From positions 16,225-80,224 of the IMG/VR virus record IMGVR_UViG_3300034351_000048: a stretch of 64,000 bases of DNA. The stretch is one strand, 5' to 3'. Under the pieces are notes generated by a model. It was not told the origin of the DNA, ran no database searches, and saw only the letters and a list, made by a program, of their open reading frames with translations. The position numbers and the translations under genes were made by a program. Shown here one piece after another: positions 8,947 through 58,192 of this stretch (position 1 is its first letter; every line of letters starts with the position of its first letter). This DNA comes from a virus.

Positions 8947-9873
8947 ATGGGTAATGTAGTAGATTTAAGAAAAGCGTTATCAACAGATAAACTTGGTACA
9001 TTGGGTGTTAGATCACCTGAACAGGCAAGAAGATTTATAGAAAAGCTTAGAGCTGAACCAACAACGTTACAATACGCAAATGTTGTTCAAATGAGTAATG
9101 AGAGTAGAGTTTTTAATAAATTAGATATAACAAGTAGATTTATAAAACCTGCTAATGAAGGTATAAGATTAAGTGATGGAGATAAAGTAGATCCCGCACA
9201 TAGCACTGTAACACTAACAACTTATAAATACATTGGTGAAATGGATATTACATATGAAACTATTGAAGATAATATCGCAAGAAACCAATTAATCCCACAA
9301 CTTAGAAGTTTAATTTCTAGAAAAGTTGCTGAAGATATTAGTGATTATGTTATGAATGGCGATACTACAAGTTCCGATGTTGAACTGAAAAGAATGAATG
9401 GGTTTTTGAAATTAGCTACTTCAAATGTATATGATTTAGTAAACAATCCTATTTCTTTAACACACTTTGATGGAGCTTTAGCTTTATTTCCTCTTAGATA
9501 TAGAACTCAATTAAGAAACTGTAAATGGATTTTACAACCAAGAACAAGAGATACATATATTTTAGGATTAACAAATGTAGATACAATGCTCGGTGATGAG
9601 GCAAGAAACACAAGATTAAACCCTAATCCTTTAGGTTATCCTATACAATTAGATTCTATTATCGATACTTATGCAAGTGGAAGTAATACAGACACAAGAG
9701 GTCTTTTTACAACACCTGAAAACATGTTAATAGGAATCTATAGACAATTTAATATTGATTTAATCGATGATAGACATAGAGAAGTGTTTACACTTCATGT
9801 AAGTGGTAGAGTTGGTTGTCAATACTTAGAAGAAGAAATGGTTGTTAAATTAAACAATATTCAAATTGCTTAA
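8947..9873 (+). CDS. Major capsid protein, HK97-fold
   Basis: 308 residues directly after protease-scaffold, the usual order. Contains an E-loop-like region with GIRLSDGDKVDPA (about residues 73-85), a spine helix RNQLIPQLRSLISRKVAEDI and C-terminal P-domain. No protease processing site can be named with confidence; the N-terminus is short, suggesting a separate scaffold, which fits the nested start upstream. ATG follows AAAGGAG. Confidence 0.8.
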   Translation: MGNVVDLRKALSTDKLGTLGVRSPEQARRFIEKLRAEPTTLQYANVVQMSNESRVFNKLDITSRFIKPANEGIRLSDGDKVDPAHSTVTLTTYKYIGEMDITYETIEDNIARNQLIPQLRSLISRKVAEDISDYVMNGDTTSSDVELKRMNGFLKLATSNVYDLVNNPISLTHFDGALALFPLRYRTQLRNCKWILQPRTRDTYILGLTNVDTMLGDEARNTRLNPNPLGYPIQLDSIIDTYASGSNTDTRGLFTTPENMLIGIYRQFNIDLIDDRHREVFTLHVSGRVGCQYLEEEMVVKLNNIQIA

Positions 9874-35770: not shown

Positions 35771-36144
35771 TATTTATTCTCCTTATTTGAAATCTTTTCC
35801 ATAAAATTTTCTAATACACTTTTACATATAAATAACATATCGTTTTGTGTATAAAAATCTTCGTAAAATTTGATTTTTATTTTTCTTATTTCGACAAATT
35901 TAGATAAATTCTCATCTTCATAAATATTTTCTATAATTTCAAAATGTGAATCATTTATATCTATAAATCCATGACTGAATATGATTTCATATGATTTCTC
36001 ATTTTCATAAAAATATTCTAAATATAAATATTGAGCTTTATCAGAAAAAGACATATCTCTTTCTATCTTAATATTTGGGTTATATTTATATATTATATTT
36101 CTGAATTCATTTTTTGTCTTATGTATAAAATCTAAATTATCCAT
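35770..36144 (-). CDS. Hypothetical protein, 124 aa
   Basis: Soluble alpha/beta protein with start overlapping the antirepressor stop by one base, so it is translated with it. It probably shares the regulation of the antirepressor. No recognised domain. Confidence 0.6.
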   Translation of the reverse strand: MDNLDFIHKTKNEFRNIIYKYNPNIKIERDMSFSDKAQYLYLEYFYENEKSYEIIFSHGFIDINDSHFEIIENIYEDENLSKFVEIRKIKIKFYEDFYTQNDMLFICKSVLENFMEKISNKENK

Positions 36145-36914
36145 TATCGATTCTCCTTACCGAATAATTCAGAAGCTAAATCATACAAATCTTTTAATTT
36201 ACCATTTTGATCTATAATATCTAATTTTGTTAATTTACCTGTTTCTTTTTGTTTTCTTTCTCTTGCGTATACATCAAAATGATATCTATACTTGAACTGT
36301 AAATATAACTTTTTCCAAGTATCATGCATACTCAAATATTTAGTTTGAGCGTATGTTCTAACAATAAGATTAATTTTTGATCTTGTAGTTAATTCATTTG
36401 CATTGTCATGAGAAAGGGGTAATTCATTAAAAGTATTCTCGTTTTCTTCCTGAACTTGTTTTATAGAATTTACATCTTCTTGTAATTTTAGCATGTTTTC
36501 TTCATGTTCAACTAATTTATTTACACAAGCTTGTAAAGCATATATATTAGACAAATCAGGCCTTTCTATTTGTTTTTCTTGTATTTCTTTTAATTTAAAG
36601 TAACTTTTAACAAGTTTATTATAAACATCCCATGCCTCAGGAGTCCCAATACTTTTAGCGTGTTTTAAGGCTCCTGATTCTGTCCATAGATATATAGGGC
36701 GTTTTCCATTTTTGTTATCTTGAAATTCACGATAACTATTATCACTAAATGATATAATCAAATAATCAATATTTTCAATATATTTCTCATTGTTTCTATT
36801 AAAATTGTAACTTATAATTTTTGTATCAACACCATAAAATTCTGCTAATTCTTTAGTTGTTAATACAATAGTGTCATTATATTGTTTTTGATTTAATTTT
36901 GAAATGTCGGTCAT
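36144..36914 (-). CDS. Phage antirepressor, ORF6N plus ORF6C domains
   Basis: Start chosen at 36914 (begins MTDISKLNQK) because the ATG at 36947 lies inside the leader and the ribosome binding site AATAGGAGT is 10 bases before 36914. The N-terminal domain (LTTKELAEFYGVDTK, PIYLWTESGALKHAKSIGT) is paralogous to 895-1644. The C-terminal domain (LTTRSKINLIVRTYAQTKY, WKKLYLQFKYRYHFD, LYDLASELFG) is ORF6C instead of KilAC, a domain swap. Probably expressed from the tRNA promoter at 37280-37308 through leader 2. Confidence 0.9.
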   Translation of the reverse strand: MTDISKLNQKQYNDTIVLTTKELAEFYGVDTKIISYNFNRNNEKYIENIDYLIISFSDNSYREFQDNKNGKRPIYLWTESGALKHAKSIGTPEAWDVYNKLVKSYFKLKEIQEKQIERPDLSNIYALQACVNKLVEHEENMLKLQEDVNSIKQVQEENENTFNELPLSHDNANELTTRSKINLIVRTYAQTKYLSMHDTWKKLYLQFKYRYHFDVYARERKQKETGKLTKLDIIDQNGKLKDLYDLASELFGKENR

Positions 36915-37022
36915 GTTAAGACTCCTATTAAATAAAATATCATTCATTATAAAATGAAAGGGGATAAAAATTTCATTTAATAGGATTAGAGAATTATCCC
37001 GGTTTCCTAATCCTATTAAAAA
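36915..37022 (-). ncRNA. c4-like structured antirepressor leader 2
   Basis: Minus strand. Perfect 14-bp stem TTTAATAGGATTAG (37020-37007) with CTAATCCTATTAAA (36989-36976). Loop core GGGATAA (37000-36994) is complementary to TTATCCC (36967-36961). The 3' strand piece TCCTATTAAA can alternatively pair, 10 exact bases, with TTTAATAGGA (36932-36923) carrying the ribosome binding site. Same architecture as leaders 1, 3 and 4 with different sequence. A hairpin TCATT/AATGA lies between. Confidence 0.8.
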
Positions 37023-37033
37023 TCTATGTAAAA

Positions 37034-37080
37034 TAAACCCCGAAGTATATAGATCGTAAATGAGGTGGTATCGGGGTTTA
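37034..37080 (-). terminator. 10-bp hairpin between tRNA-Leu and leader 2 (terminator or regulatory hairpin)
   Basis: TAAACCCCGA/TCGGGGTTTA forms a perfect 10-bp stem with a 27-base loop. On the minus strand it is followed by ATTTTAC, a weak U tract. The loop carries, on one strand or the other, AGATCGTAA/TTACGATCT, exactly the 9 bases around the loop partner of leader 4 (57349-57357). It may be a partial terminator, a processing site or a decoy for leader 4. Confidence 0.5.
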
Positions 37081-37136
37081 TACTAAAAAATATTAAAGGA
37101 GATCAAATGAAAAAATTAATTTTCAATATTAGAAAA

Positions 37137-37220
37137 TGCGAAGTAAAGGAATCGAACCTTCAAGCTCTTACGAGCGGCAGATTTTAAGTCTGTTGCGTTT
37201 ACCTGTTTCGCCAACCTCGC
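37137..37220 (-). tRNA. tRNA-Leu (anticodon UAA)
   Basis: 84 bases on the minus strand: acceptor GCGAGGT/ACTTCGC, D arm GCG/CGC with GG in the loop, anticodon loop CTTAAAA (UAA), class II variable arm GCTC/GAGC, T arm GAAGG TTCGATT CCTTT, discriminator A, no encoded CCA. Position 27-43 is a mismatch. It leads the transcript of leader 2 and the ORF6N/ORF6C antirepressor. Confidence 0.9.
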
Positions 37221-37279
37221 AAAATTACCACTTAACGTGGTAAAAACAATTTGCCAAAAAGTATTTTTATCATAATTTA

Positions 37280-37308
37280 AATATACTAAATTAGATTAAA
37301 ACAGTCAA
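37280..37308 (-). promoter_or_regulatory. Promoter of tRNA-Leu and the minus-strand antirepressor operon
   Basis: Minus strand TTGACT (37308-37303), 17-base spacer, TATATT (37285-37280). No better promoter is seen between the tRNA and leader 2, so the antirepressor probably depends on this one. Confidence 0.75.
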
Positions 37309-39061: not shown

Positions 39062-39089
39062 TTGACTTTTTTAAATTTATTGTTATATT
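39062..39089 (+). promoter_or_regulatory. Promoter upstream of a possible small RNA
   Basis: TTGACT (39062-39067), 16-base spacer, TATATT (39084-39089). It is 220 bases before a second promoter and no gene starts between them, which suggests a non-coding transcript. Confidence 0.65.
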
Positions 39090-39285: not shown

Positions 39286-39313
39286 TTGACTTTTAAAATA
39301 GTTTTATTATTAT
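39286..39313 (+). promoter_or_regulatory. Promoter of antirepressor leader 3
   Basis: TTGACT (39286-39291), 16-base spacer, TATTAT (39308-39313). Expected start near 39320, right before the leader stem. Confidence 0.7.
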
Positions 39314-39319
39314 TTATAA

Positions 39320-39442
39320 GTATAAACTAAAAATTAACCAGATTAAGATATATACCGACTTTCTTAATCTTGTTAGTTTATATGTTGTCGGTACATCCAC
39401 CTTTGGTGGGTGAACATATTTTCTAACAAGGTGATAAAAACC
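39320..39442 (+). ncRNA. c4-like structured antirepressor leader 3
   Basis: Stem: TAAACTAA (39323-39330) and AACCAGATTAAGA (39336-39348) pair with 39362-39380 with one mismatch and a 5-base bulge. Loop core TACCGAC (39353-39359) is complementary to GTCGGTA (39387-39393). The 3' strand CTTGTTAG (39369-39376) is also complementary to CTAACAAG (39423-39430), next to the ribosome binding site AAGGTG. A hairpin CCACC TTT GGTGG follows the pseudoknot. Confidence 0.8.
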
Positions 39443-40126
39443 ATGTCAAATTTAATAAAAATAACAAATAACATCTCAATTGAAGAAATACTCTACAAAG
39501 GACAAAGAGTATTAACTTCAAAGCAACTTGCCGAAATTTACAATTGTAATGAAAGGCAAATCCGTCAAAACTTTAATAATAATAAGGATAAATTTATTGA
39601 AGGTAAACATTATGTTAAGCTTATTGGAGAAGATTTAAAAGAATTTAAGAAAGATATTAAAACAAAAAATTTAGTAAATAAATACACACCTGAATTAAAT
39701 TTATTCACTTTGAAAGGTTGCTTATTACAAAGTAACTTCATTACATCTATCAATGATAAAAATTTACAGTCTATTTATAAATATTTTGGGGTTGAAAATA
39801 ATCTTACAATAGGTAATTCTATTCAAAGAACAGAGTATTATTATTTAGATGAACTTAGAAAGGCTTTCGATGGAATATTTGATATAACTTCACAATTGAC
39901 TATAGGAATGTATAGAATAGATTATTACATACAGAAATACAATATAGCAATAGAATGTGATGAAAACAATCATAACGATAGAGATAGAGACTATGAAATA
40001 CAAAGAGAAAAGTTTATAAAAAAAGAATTAGGTTGTAAAATTATACGATTTGATCCTAAATTTATATCTATTGGAGAATTAATAAATAAAATCTTATGTG
40101 CTATAAAGGAGATGGATAATGAATAG
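39443..40126 (+). CDS. ORF6N domain fused to a DUF559-like PD-(D/E)XK nuclease domain
   Basis: Start at 39443 (AAGGTG before it); the ATG at 39410 is inside the leader. N-terminal ORF6N-like module (VLTSKQLAEIYNCNERQIRQ). The C-terminal half is a restriction-endonuclease-like fold: LTIGMYRIDYYIQKYNIAIE then CDENNHNDRDRDYEIQREKF and GCKIIRFDP, the D...E-x-D and His pattern of DUF559/Vsr-like nucleases. A regulator with a nuclease in place of KilAC is unusual. 8-base overlap with the next antirepressor. Confidence 0.75.
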   Translation: MSNLIKITNNISIEEILYKGQRVLTSKQLAEIYNCNERQIRQNFNNNKDKFIEGKHYVKLIGEDLKEFKKDIKTKNLVNKYTPELNLFTLKGCLLQSNFITSINDKNLQSIYKYFGVENNLTIGNSIQRTEYYYLDELRKAFDGIFDITSQLTIGMYRIDYYIQKYNIAIECDENNHNDRDRDYEIQREKFIKKELGCKIIRFDPKFISIGELINKILCAIKEMDNE

Positions 40127-40883
40127 TATTGTTAAAATAACTGAAAATATCATGATAGAGGAAATAATTTATAATGGCAAAAGAATGCTTACTTCAAAGC
40201 AATTAGCAAGTATCTATGATACAGAGTTGAAAAACATACAATATAACTTTAAATATCATGAAAATAAATTTATTGAAGGTAAGCATTATATTAAACTTTC
40301 TGGAAATGAATTAAAAGAATTTAAAGACTTACCTGGAATTTCAAGGTTAGTTTCTAAAAATACCCCCACGCTGGTTTTATGGTGTGAAGAAGGTGCCGTT
40401 TTAATGGCTAAAACTATAAACACAGATCAAGCATGGGAAGTTTCACATAAGCTTGTAAATTTTTATTTTGAAAATAAAGATCAAAAACAAATTCCTGAAA
40501 ACCTATCTAAACTTGAAATATTAAAGATGGCTTTGGAAAGTGAAGAAAAGAGAATAAAATTAGAAGAAGAAAATAAAAAATTACTTCCAAAAGCTGAATT
40601 TTACGATGCCGTTACACAAAGTGAAAACTGGACTTCTATTGGAAAAGTTTCAAAAATATTATCAATTAAGAATTTAGGTAGGAATAATTTATTCAAAAAA
40701 TTAAGAGAATTAGGATTATTAAGTCCTGAGAATGAACCTTATCAACCTGGTATTGAAGCTGGATATTTTAAAGTTATAGAAGAACCTTATGAAAAATCCG
40801 ACGGCAGTGTAGATATATACTACAAAACCGTCGTTTCTCAAAAAGGTATTGACTATATACTAAAAAAATTGAAAGAACAATAA
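40119..40883 (+). CDS. Phage antirepressor, ORF6N plus KilAC
   Basis: 254 residues, start behind AAGGAGATGG and overlapping the previous gene, so the two regulators are made together from leader 3. ORF6N part (MLTSKQLASIYDTELKNIQY, CEEGAVLMAKTINTDQAWEV) resembles its upstream neighbour; linker LEILKMALESEEKRIKLEEE is nearly identical to that of 48084-48854; KilAC part NWTSIGKVSKILSIKNLGRN and VSQKGIDYILKKL. Confidence 0.9.
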   Translation: MNSIVKITENIMIEEIIYNGKRMLTSKQLASIYDTELKNIQYNFKYHENKFIEGKHYIKLSGNELKEFKDLPGISRLVSKNTPTLVLWCEEGAVLMAKTINTDQAWEVSHKLVNFYFENKDQKQIPENLSKLEILKMALESEEKRIKLEEENKKLLPKAEFYDAVTQSENWTSIGKVSKILSIKNLGRNNLFKKLRELGLLSPENEPYQPGIEAGYFKVIEEPYEKSDGSVDIYYKTVVSQKGIDYILKKLKEQ

Positions 40884-47982: not shown

Positions 47983-48083
47983 ATTACTACCTTAATATTT
48001 ATTTTATGGGGCTCATTATGTATTATGTAATGGGCTCTTATTTATAGGGTAGCAATAAAATATAAATATTGAGGTATTCAATT
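47983..48083 (+). ncRNA. Structured leader 5 of the Bro-N antirepressor
   Basis: A 10-bp hairpin GGGCTCATTA (48009-48018) with TAATGGGCTC (48028-48037) is enclosed by CTACC (47987-47991) pairing with GGTAG (48048-48052). The same 5' strand TACCTTAAT (47988 on) is complementary to ATTGAGGTA (48068-48076), the ribosome binding site, with flanking A/T pairing of about 15 more bases. The two foldings exclude each other. It differs in layout from leaders 1-4 but has the same logic. Confidence 0.65.
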
Positions 48084-48854
48084 ATGCATAACAATTCTAT
48101 CCAATTATTTAATTTCCAAGAAAATGAAGTAAGAACATTTACGGATGAAAACAATAATATATGGTTTTGTTTAAAAGATATTTGTGATATTTTAGAGTTA
48201 AGTAATCCAAGAAAAGTAGCTTCCGATTTAGACAAAGACGACGTAACTATTAGTTACGTAGGGGTGAAAACAGGCGTGAAAAAGGATGGAACAGATGCTG
48301 TTCAAAATATTGAAATGAACTTTATAAATGAGAGCGGTTTATATCAAGTAATATTCAAAAGTCGTAAACTTATAGCTAAGAAATTTAGTAAATGGATAAC
48401 AAGTGAAGTAATCCCATCTATTAGAAAAACGGGTCAATACGGCATAGAGAACTTATCAAGATTAGAAATTCTTAAAATAGCATTAGATAGTGAAGAAAAG
48501 AGACTACAATTAGAAGAAGAAAACAAAAAATTGCTTCCAAAAGCACAGATTTTTGATGATTTTCTTGAAAGTATTAATACGATTAGTGTTGGAGAATTAG
48601 CGAAATTATTATGTAAAAATGGTTATAATACAGGTCAAAAAAGATTATTCAAATTTTTAAGAGAAAATAAAATTCTTATGGAAAAAGATAACCTCCCCTA
48701 TCAAGAATATATAGACAGGGGTTATTTTGAGGTATCTACTTTCATAATTAATCATACACATAGTAATTACAAAGAGACTAAACCACAAACTAAAGTTACA
48801 AAGAAAGGTTGTTTGTTTATACGGAATTTATTTATTAAAGCAACTTCTATGTAA
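48084..48854 (+). CDS. Bro-N plus KilAC antirepressor
   Basis: Start ATG 48084 behind TGAGG; the TTG at 48069 is in the ribosome binding site. N-terminal Bro-N domain (FTDENNNIWFCLKDICDILE, FINESGLYQVIFKSRK, FSKWITSEVIPSIRKTGQYG), linker LEILKIALDSEEKRLQLEEE shared with 40119-40883, and KilAC (TISVGELAKLLCKNGYN, KRLFKFLRENKIL, TKKGCLFI). 256 residues. Confidence 0.9.
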   Translation: MHNNSIQLFNFQENEVRTFTDENNNIWFCLKDICDILELSNPRKVASDLDKDDVTISYVGVKTGVKKDGTDAVQNIEMNFINESGLYQVIFKSRKLIAKKFSKWITSEVIPSIRKTGQYGIENLSRLEILKIALDSEEKRLQLEEENKKLLPKAQIFDDFLESINTISVGELAKLLCKNGYNTGQKRLFKFLRENKILMEKDNLPYQEYIDRGYFEVSTFIINHTHSNYKETKPQTKVTKKGCLFIRNLFIKATSM

Positions 48855-57178: not shown

Positions 57179-57300
57179 AGAATAATAGCAGAATTGGCAA
57201 ATGCCTTAATTGAGATATAATCTAATTTGATAAAAAACGATTTTGGTTATATTGAGATTAAGCCTCTTTGAGGGTGGGGGTTCAAGTCCCCCTTATTCTT
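57179..57300 (+). tRNA. tRNA-Leu-like gene (probable GAG) with about 41-base insertion in the anticodon loop
   Basis: Acceptor AGAATAA/TTATTCT (7 bp), D arm GCA/TGC with GG in the loop, class II variable arm CCTC TTT GAGG, T arm GGGGG TTCAAGT CCCCC. The anticodon stem CTTAA/TTAAG encloses 51 bases in place of 7: 8-base direct repeats ATTGAGAT lie at both ends of a segment that folds as TATAATC/GGTTATA. Removing 41 bases gives the loop TTGAGAT, anticodon GAG. The discriminator would be T, odd for tRNA-Leu. Function as tRNA is uncertain. Confidence 0.65.
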
Positions 57301-57412
57301 ATAATAGGATTAGAAAACAAGATCGTTTCTCTAATCCTGTTAGAAATATTACGATCTCGTTTGTTTTAAATTAAAAATAATTCAAATGAATATTGTCTAA
57401 CAGGAGGTATTA
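57301..57412 (+). ncRNA. c4-like structured leader 4 of the Rha-type gene
   Basis: 12-bp stem AATAGGATTAGA (57303-57314) with TCTAATCCTGTT (57330-57341), one G-U. Loop core AGATCGT (57320-57326) is complementary to ACGATCT (57351-57357). The 3' strand TCCTGTTAGA (57335-57344) is complementary over 10 exact bases to TCTAACAGGA (57396-57405), which carries the ribosome binding site. Homologous in sequence to leader 2, with paired changes in both helices. The stem starts 3 bases after the tRNA-like 3' end. Confidence 0.8.
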
Positions 57413-58192
57413 ATGAAAGATAATATAATCAAATTAAATAAAGAAAATGAACCAATGACTACAAGTTTAATTATAGCTAAAGAATTCGGTAAACCGCATG
57501 ATGATGTTTTAAAAGCTATACGAAGCTTAAAATGTAGCGAGAAATTTAGAGTCGGTAATTTTACCGAGTCCTCTTATACTAATACCCAAAATAAAAAACA
57601 ACCTATGTATGAAATGAAAAGAGATGGATTTATGTTTTTAGTAATGGGTTTTACTGGTGATAAGGCTGCGGAGATTAAAGAAAAGTTTATATATGCGTTT
57701 AATGATATGTATACCTATATAAAACAATTAGAACAAAACAAATACAATGAACACTGGTTGGATATACGATTCAAAGGTAAATTATTACGATGTAGTTTAA
57801 CAGATGAAATAAAAAAGTTTGTTGAATATGCCAAAAGTCAAGGAAGCCAGCATGCTGAATTCTACTACATGGCAATAACAAAACTTGTAAATAATAAATT
57901 ATTTGGTGTAACTTCTTTAAATAAAATAGGTAAGAACTTAAGAGATTATTGTGATTTCGTTCAATTGGCACATATAACAACCGCGGAGAGTATAATAATT
58001 ACTACATTAGTAAATGAAATAGATAATGGAACCGTTTACAAAGAAATTTATGAAATTATAAGAAGTAAAATAGATGATTTTGGGTTGTTAATTCCTCAAG
58101 ATAAGCCTTCAAACATCCCACAAATTGAATACAATAAATGCTTATCTAAAAAGAAACAAAAAGAATTAGCTAATAGTAAATTATTAAATTAG
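57413..58192 (+). CDS. Rha-family phage regulatory protein
   Basis: 259 residues. N-terminal Rha domain (MTTSLIIAKEFGKPHDDVLK, NFTESSYTNTQNKKQPMYEM, MTGDKAAEIK-like FTGDKAAEIKEKFIYAFNDM). The C-terminal 130 residues match those of the AntA gene at 43141 (KNLRDYCDFVQLAHITTAES against KNLRDEISYIQLSHIITLET). ATG behind CAGGAGG, which lies in the leader. Rha proteins can block growth in unsuitable hosts; role here inferred as antirepressor-like. Confidence 0.85.
   Translation: MKDNIIKLNKENEPMTTSLIIAKEFGKPHDDVLKAIRSLKCSEKFRVGNFTESSYTNTQNKKQPMYEMKRDGFMFLVMGFTGDKAAEIKEKFIYAFNDMYTYIKQLEQNKYNEHWLDIRFKGKLLRCSLTDEIKKFVEYAKSQGSQHAEFYYMAITKLVNNKLFGVTSLNKIGKNLRDYCDFVQLAHITTAESIIITTLVNEIDNGTVYKEIYEIIRSKIDDFGLLIPQDKPSNIPQIEYNKCLSKKKQKELANSKLLN

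Follow-up and report, generated by a model that had tools for sequence, protein, structure and literature searches.

Compensatory changes in a folded leader element upstream of five antirepressor-type genes in one phage

At least five copies of a single folded RNA element occur in the genome of an unclassified, AT-rich bacterial virus. All five of the copies described here immediately precede genes of the antirepressor type (ORF6N-ANT, ORF6N, ORF6N-DUF559 [followed by ORF6N-ANT], AntA, and Rha), whose products break lysogeny, and each copy is predicted to be able to hide the ribosome-binding site of its gene. Four copies (leaders 1–4) are in the window, which is the whole 64,000-nucleotide stretch of DNA that was analyzed; leader 5 lies beyond it and came to light when we inspected a further antirepressor gene of the virus. 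Judged from the aligned copies, the RNA fold and its covariation are real: the contact sites vary from copy to copy yet stay complementary, so that each copy appears to have its own private lock.

Leaders 2 and 4 illustrate this most directly. A sequence-only reading had held that the two align, that the loop core, its partner, and the ribosome-binding-site pairing had changed between them, and that double changes inside one genome had preserved both helices, and each of these claims was borne out. Leader 2 occupies 36912–37022 (−), with the hairpin stem P1 at 37020–37007/36989–36976 and the start codon ATG at 36914; leader 4 occupies 57301–57412 (+), with the hairpin AATAGGATTAG...CTAATCCTGTT and ATG at 57413. 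The two can be aligned with no gaps in either contact segment. The loop core (a) reads GGGATAA in leader 2 (37000–36994) and AGATCGT in leader 4 (57320–57326), and its partner (a') reads TTATCCC (36967–36961) and ACGATCT (57351–57357), respectively. The pairing at the ribosome-binding site (b:b') is TCCTATTAAA (36985–36976) with TTTAATAGGA (36932–36923) in leader 2 and TCCTGTTAGA (57335–57344) with TCTAACAGGA (57396–57405) in leader 4. When paired and unpaired substitutions were counted, 6 of the 7 a:a' pairs and 2 of the 10 b:b' pairs showed double changes and none was broken; MAFFT, which is blind to structure, placed a on a, a' on a', and b on b, column by column, and left the b' (SD) strands unaligned (split), the b:b' count there being matched by sequence. 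Substitutions fell in 12 of the 14 a/a' columns compared with 24 of the 91 other columns (Fisher p = 3e-5, a post hoc comparison). The two leaders share the P1 hairpin, and the P1 stem of leader 4 has a U-G wobble at the site of the b change, because the P1 5' arm itself is unchanged.

The element begins with the P1 5' arm, a loop containing a, the P1 3' arm (which overlaps b), and an inner stem strand, b2; these are followed by a' (a 7-nt bulge), an apical hairpin (P3), b2', b' with the SD, and the start codon. The SD motif is repeated in the P1 5' arm of most leaders, and the anti-SD strand is contested by P1 and b:b'. The a:a' helix crosses P1 as well as the stem made by b:b' and b2:b2', which makes the predicted fold a pseudoknot. 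In leader 4, the P1 5' arm (57302–57313) contains the SD mimic TAATAGGATTAG, the 3' arm CTAATCCTGTTA (57331–57342) is overlapped by b, and P3 (CGTTTG...CAAATG) spans 57358–57388. P1 core and b:b' barely overlap in leader 3, and a switch there would depend on an extended P1. In the RNAfold predictions for leaders 1, 3, and 5, the 7-nt bulge coincided exactly with a'; in leader 4 the two agreed to within 1 nt.

Leader 1 (1642–1766, −) has P1 at 1758–1749/1725–1716, a at 1739–1733, b at 1723–1711, a' at 1700–1694, and b' at 1665–1653, and its ATG (1644) opens an ORF6N-ANT antirepressor gene (895–1644, −; Pfam ANT 1e-22, ORF6N 6e-17). The gene behind leader 2 (36144–36914, −) encodes an ORF6N antirepressor-like protein (Pfam ORF6N 1e-14; PHROG anti-repressor). 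The longest open reading frame behind leader 2 would include the SD, so the start was placed at the internal ATG at 36914 rather than at 36947. This start is backed by an N-terminal match, MTD(L/I)(T/S)KLNQKQY, to the leader-1 protein; the leader-2 protein then opens MTDISKLNQKQY and resembles the leader-1 protein, MTDLTKLNQKQY. Leader 3 (39324–39445, +) has P1 at 39340–39347/39363–39370, a at 39353–39359, b at 39369–39376, a' at 39387–39393, and b' at 39423–39430. Its ATG (39443) starts a gene (39443–40126, +; Pfam; PHROG anti-repressor) whose product joins an ORF6N domain to a nuclease-like domain of the DUF559/MTES_1575 type, and a second antirepressor gene, ORF6N-ANT (40119–40883; Pfam; PHROG anti-repressor), comes after it. 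A Rha-family regulator (57413–58192, +; Pfam Phage_pRha 8e-30; PHROG transcriptional regulator) is encoded behind leader 4, and leader 5 (G000:C1 [L067] 9465–9588, −) is upstream of an AntA antirepressor gene. Leaders 1 and 3 have ACCTTTGGTG in common in their apical hairpins (1675–1693, −, and 39394–39412, +, respectively), which are terminator-like and stand just before the SD.

Promoter-like sequences, recognized by consensus match only, are found just upstream of leader 1 (TTGACT-16-TATATT, 1776–1803, −), just upstream of leader 3 (TTGACT-16-TATTAT, 39286–39313, +), and upstream of an intact tRNA-Leu(UAA) gene and leader 2 (TTGACT-17-TATATT, 37280–37308, −). We saw no significant structure in the stretch between a promoter at 39062 and leader 3. 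The tRNA-Leu(UAA) gene (37136–37221, −), upstream of leader 2, apparently lies behind the same type of promoter. Genes for tRNA-Leu precede two of the five leaders, the other being an interrupted tRNA-Leu(GAG) gene (57179–57300, +; Rfam tRNA score 38.6) that abuts the 5' end of leader 4. It has an intron-like insertion in the anticodon loop, measured as 42 nt between two copies of ATTGAGAT by reading and as 51 nt by the intron mode of ARAGORN; ARAGORN without that mode misses the gene. A hairpin of 11 bp (37027–37080, −) immediately precedes leader 2, and its 27-nt loop contains ACGATCT, the a' of leader 4. We considered this sequence as a decoy, but it may be there by chance, as 7-mers recur.

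The claim that both helices were kept extends to all five leaders in structure-blind alignments, and compensatory double changes in both helices are supported by the sequences. All of the covariation comparisons are between paralogous leaders within one genome. In the MAFFT alignment of the four window leaders, a fell in columns 30–36 and a' in columns 69–75; all 28 a:a' cells were paired, 7 of 7 pairs covaried, and none of 500 shuffles matched this, a count that, with so few sequences, is not a probability. With leader 5, which fell in the same columns, 35 of 35 cells were paired (one as G-U), and all seven pairs again showed double changes. Sliding the partners by 1–3 columns in these alignments brought pairing down to 29%–61%. 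The complete fold (P1, a:a', inner stem, and apical hairpin) was 90.9% paired across the five leaders, with double changes at 23 of 33 pairs; slid controls gave 38%–45%, and 0 of 500 shuffles reached it, which again is a count and not a probability.

We also assessed the element outside the alignment. The 7-nt loop complement alone gave p values of 0.03, 0.09, 0.008, and 0.02 in the four window leaders (Fisher combined 2.8e-4). A descriptor made up of pairing and SD-overlap rules, which were relaxed after a stricter version missed leader 5 and re-run with their own shuffle control, ranked the five leaders at the top of 124 SD-preceded starts in the 80-kb record (scores 81, 75, 74, 73, and 68.5; next best, 46.5). 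None of 18,300 dinucleotide shuffles scored ≥60 with this three-part descriptor upstream of a start codon. Compared with shuffles, leaders 1–5 folded with z scores of −4.1, −1.9, −4.2, −3.8, and −4.0, leader 2 being only moderately better than its shuffles.

The 80-kb record contains at least eight antirepressor-type genes (four ORF6N, Rha, two AntA, and Bro-N) plus one KilA-N gene. The element is absent before the KilA-N gene, the second AntA gene (43141), and the Bro-N-ANT gene (48084). The Bro-N-ANT gene is preceded by a different, long SD-sequestering hairpin (47985–48087, +; ACCTTAATATTTATTTTAT with ATAAAATATAAATATTGAGGT; z = −4.7). The phage also encodes a sliding clamp (L067 11975–13084) and a Clp-like protease (L067 2137–2697).

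Queries with Rha, ORF6N, DNA polymerase, and capsid sequences identified no close kin of the phage in the collections searched. The element was found at none of the 53 viral and 10 bacterial loci from the ORF6N alignment, nor in phages of Fusobacterium, Marinitoga, and Thomasclavelia. Two patterns based on P3 gave zero hits, and an exact P1 pattern gave eight matches in viral_contigs, all of them unrelated. In a blastn search of leaders 1, 3, and 4 against 50,697 phages, short matches covered promoter-like stretches only and none covered the leaders. A covariance model built from the five leaders recovered no convincing further member in 71 sequence sources; a 27.5-bit hit in L075, between an integrase gene and another small gene, was judged to be a chance match. 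Run against about 300 bacterial genomes, the same model gave no hit; this result carries little weight, as the host group may be outside that sample.

We lean, if only slightly, toward reading each leader as a cis-encoded translational switch on a phage antirepressor mRNA, with a:a' as its lock. The anti-SD strand b would pair either with the P1 5' arm (the SD mimic) or with the true SD (b'). The 7-bp pseudoknot between the P1 loop (a) and the 7-nt bulge of the downstream stem-loop (a') would lock P1 and so favor the SD-open form, and if the lock failed or P1 were lost, the long b:b' hairpin would capture the SD. The outcome might be set by co-transcriptional order (P1, then a', then the SD) or by 5' processing. 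We infer that translation is regulated and that a:a' favors the open state. Calculated energies of the SD-open P1 form and the SD-closed form are −26.2/−32.6, −20.1/−22.8, −29.2/−29.3, and −24.1/−24.2 kcal/mol for leaders 1–4. The gap between the two forms (0.1–6.4 kcal/mol) is smaller than the predicted contribution of the a:a' duplex (−7.4 to −9.2 kcal/mol), although these energies exclude the costs of pseudoknot loops and the argument is a rough one. If those loops are not too costly, the lock would be large enough to tip leaders 1–4 toward the open form. In leader 5, the closed form is favored by 11 kcal/mol (open/closed −22.5/−33.7), and a:a' (−9.5 kcal/mol) is too small to tip it. Geometry also bears on this question. 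Because a and b are joined by just 8–9 nt, a:a' would be hard to combine in cis with the full b:b' stem, which favors switching in cis, with P1 held by the lock and the SD thereby left free.

The main rival is that a processed leader acts in trans, in the manner of C4. In that case, processing of the antirepressor transcript would release the leader, and its P1 hairpin, now a free RNA, would bind the mRNA through a kissing contact between loop a and a' while b covered the SD; the five cores would be five private addresses. C4 of the P1 phage family is likewise located ahead of an ORF6N-ant operon, and its targets are an upstream site and the SD (PMC12197685). The cores here form the most variable helix and yet stay complementary, and non-cognate a:a' pairs reach no better than −3.4 kcal/mol compared with −7.4 to −9.5 for cognate pairs, although random 7-mers would show similar orthogonality. 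Core variability fits trans action, but a need to avoid mispairing among five leaders that exist side by side could produce it as well. Maturation of the tRNAs that precede two leaders could free the leader 5' ends; there is, however, no apparent cleavage site between b and a', and a leader RNA that extended to P3 would hold both a and a' and could quench itself. As the segments also stand in crossing, pseudoknot-like order and not in the nested order of C4, we consider action in trans possible but improbable.

Three other explanations seem to us less probable still. P3 and a U-rich tail might terminate some of the transcripts immediately ahead of the SD, so that a short RNA would be made alongside a long mRNA with poor translation; the long form might in turn be activated or repressed by the short one. 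IsrK is a leader with such short and long isoforms and with alternative structures that control translation of Gifsy-1 orf45-anrP (PMC4825925), and P3 is terminator-like in leaders 1 and 3. A comparable terminator is missing from leaders 2 and 4, however, the U-run of leader 3 is weak, and the isrK Rfam model is unmatched, and we regard attenuation of this kind as unlikely. We think it slightly more unlikely again that a sensor for a ligand or for temperature resides within the fold. AU-rich, SD-sequestering hairpins with near-isoenergetic alternatives are typical of riboswitches and thermosensors, and the leaders fit that description, but they lack the conserved unpaired nucleotides required of an aptamer, variability is greatest at the presumed contact site, and no Rfam model matches. 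Finally, chance complementarity in AT-rich DNA could account for the a:a' match of any single leader, where the p values are modest (0.008–0.09). As the source of the whole fold, chance is refuted by the covariation of five leaders out of five at fixed columns and by the 18,300 shuffles, and we give it almost no weight.

It is conceivable, though we hold it doubtful, that the phage has five mutually orthogonal, self-addressed RNA locks, in which each 7-nt core recognizes its own partner only. If that were true, each antirepressor mRNA would carry or release its own leader RNA, the five could be silenced or released singly, and new specificities would come about by coordinated change on both sides of the core. 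The element suggests that phages with many antirepressors wire each one separately at the RNA level. It also opens the evolution of RNA contact specificity to direct testing, as the scaffold has been kept while the contact core has been replaced pair by pair, and it illustrates that the internal covariation of at least five copies in one genome can suffice to define a fold without relatives. The known cases of RNA control over phage antirepressors come from a few phages of enterobacteria, and the present element would be a structurally different solution.

We found no description of this leader element in the paper collection searched. Apart from the tRNAs, the leaders gave no Rfam match, and no riboswitch aptamer model matched them. 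In mRNAs of the hok/sok type, a metastable 5' hairpin pairs locally first and later permits or stops the long-range pairing that closes the SD. By analogy, the leaders may likewise be 5' elements with metastable local pairing before an SD-closing pairing, but neither a toxin nor an antisense gene was seen here, and we know of no loop-bulge pseudoknot in hok/sok-type mRNAs. The leaders would resemble P22 sar RNA in the RNA control of antirepressor translation; sar, however, is a separate antisense RNA that acts on ant mRNA (PMC12197685), whereas the leaders pair within the same strand. IsrK of Gifsy-1 (RF01394) is likewise the leader of a phage operon, orf45-anrP, in which alternative structures decide translation, and it shows that leaders of such operons can act as translational switches, both by folding in alternative ways and in trans (PMC4825925). 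IsrK pairs with orf45, and its short, terminated isoform acts in trans, whereas the leaders would capture the SD directly and have a conserved pseudoknot. Two near-isoenergetic folds are predicted for the leaders, and a terminator-like P3 is present in leaders 1 and 3 only; the IsrK model matched neither the window nor the leaders and was found only in the control, the P1-like phage RCS47.

The closest likeness is to C4 of phages P1 and P7. C4 also lies directly upstream of an ORF6N-type antirepressor operon, has two segments complementary to downstream sites, one of them the SD, and has copies that differ in matching segments; the leaders, too, are upstream of an antirepressor gene and complementary to its SD. 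The Rfam C4 model (RF01695) had no hit in the window at the gathering cut-off and none in the four window leaders at E values up to 5–10, and in RCS47 it scored 75.4 bits upstream of the ORF6N-type ant operon. The C4 segments of RCS47 read b-a-a'-b', a nested order that permits an ordinary antisense duplex, whereas all five leaders read a-b-a'-b'. C4 acts in trans as a processed small RNA. The leaders further differ from C4 in that the 5' arm of P1 mimics the SD, a' is displayed in a bulge of 7 nt, and one genome holds five copies.
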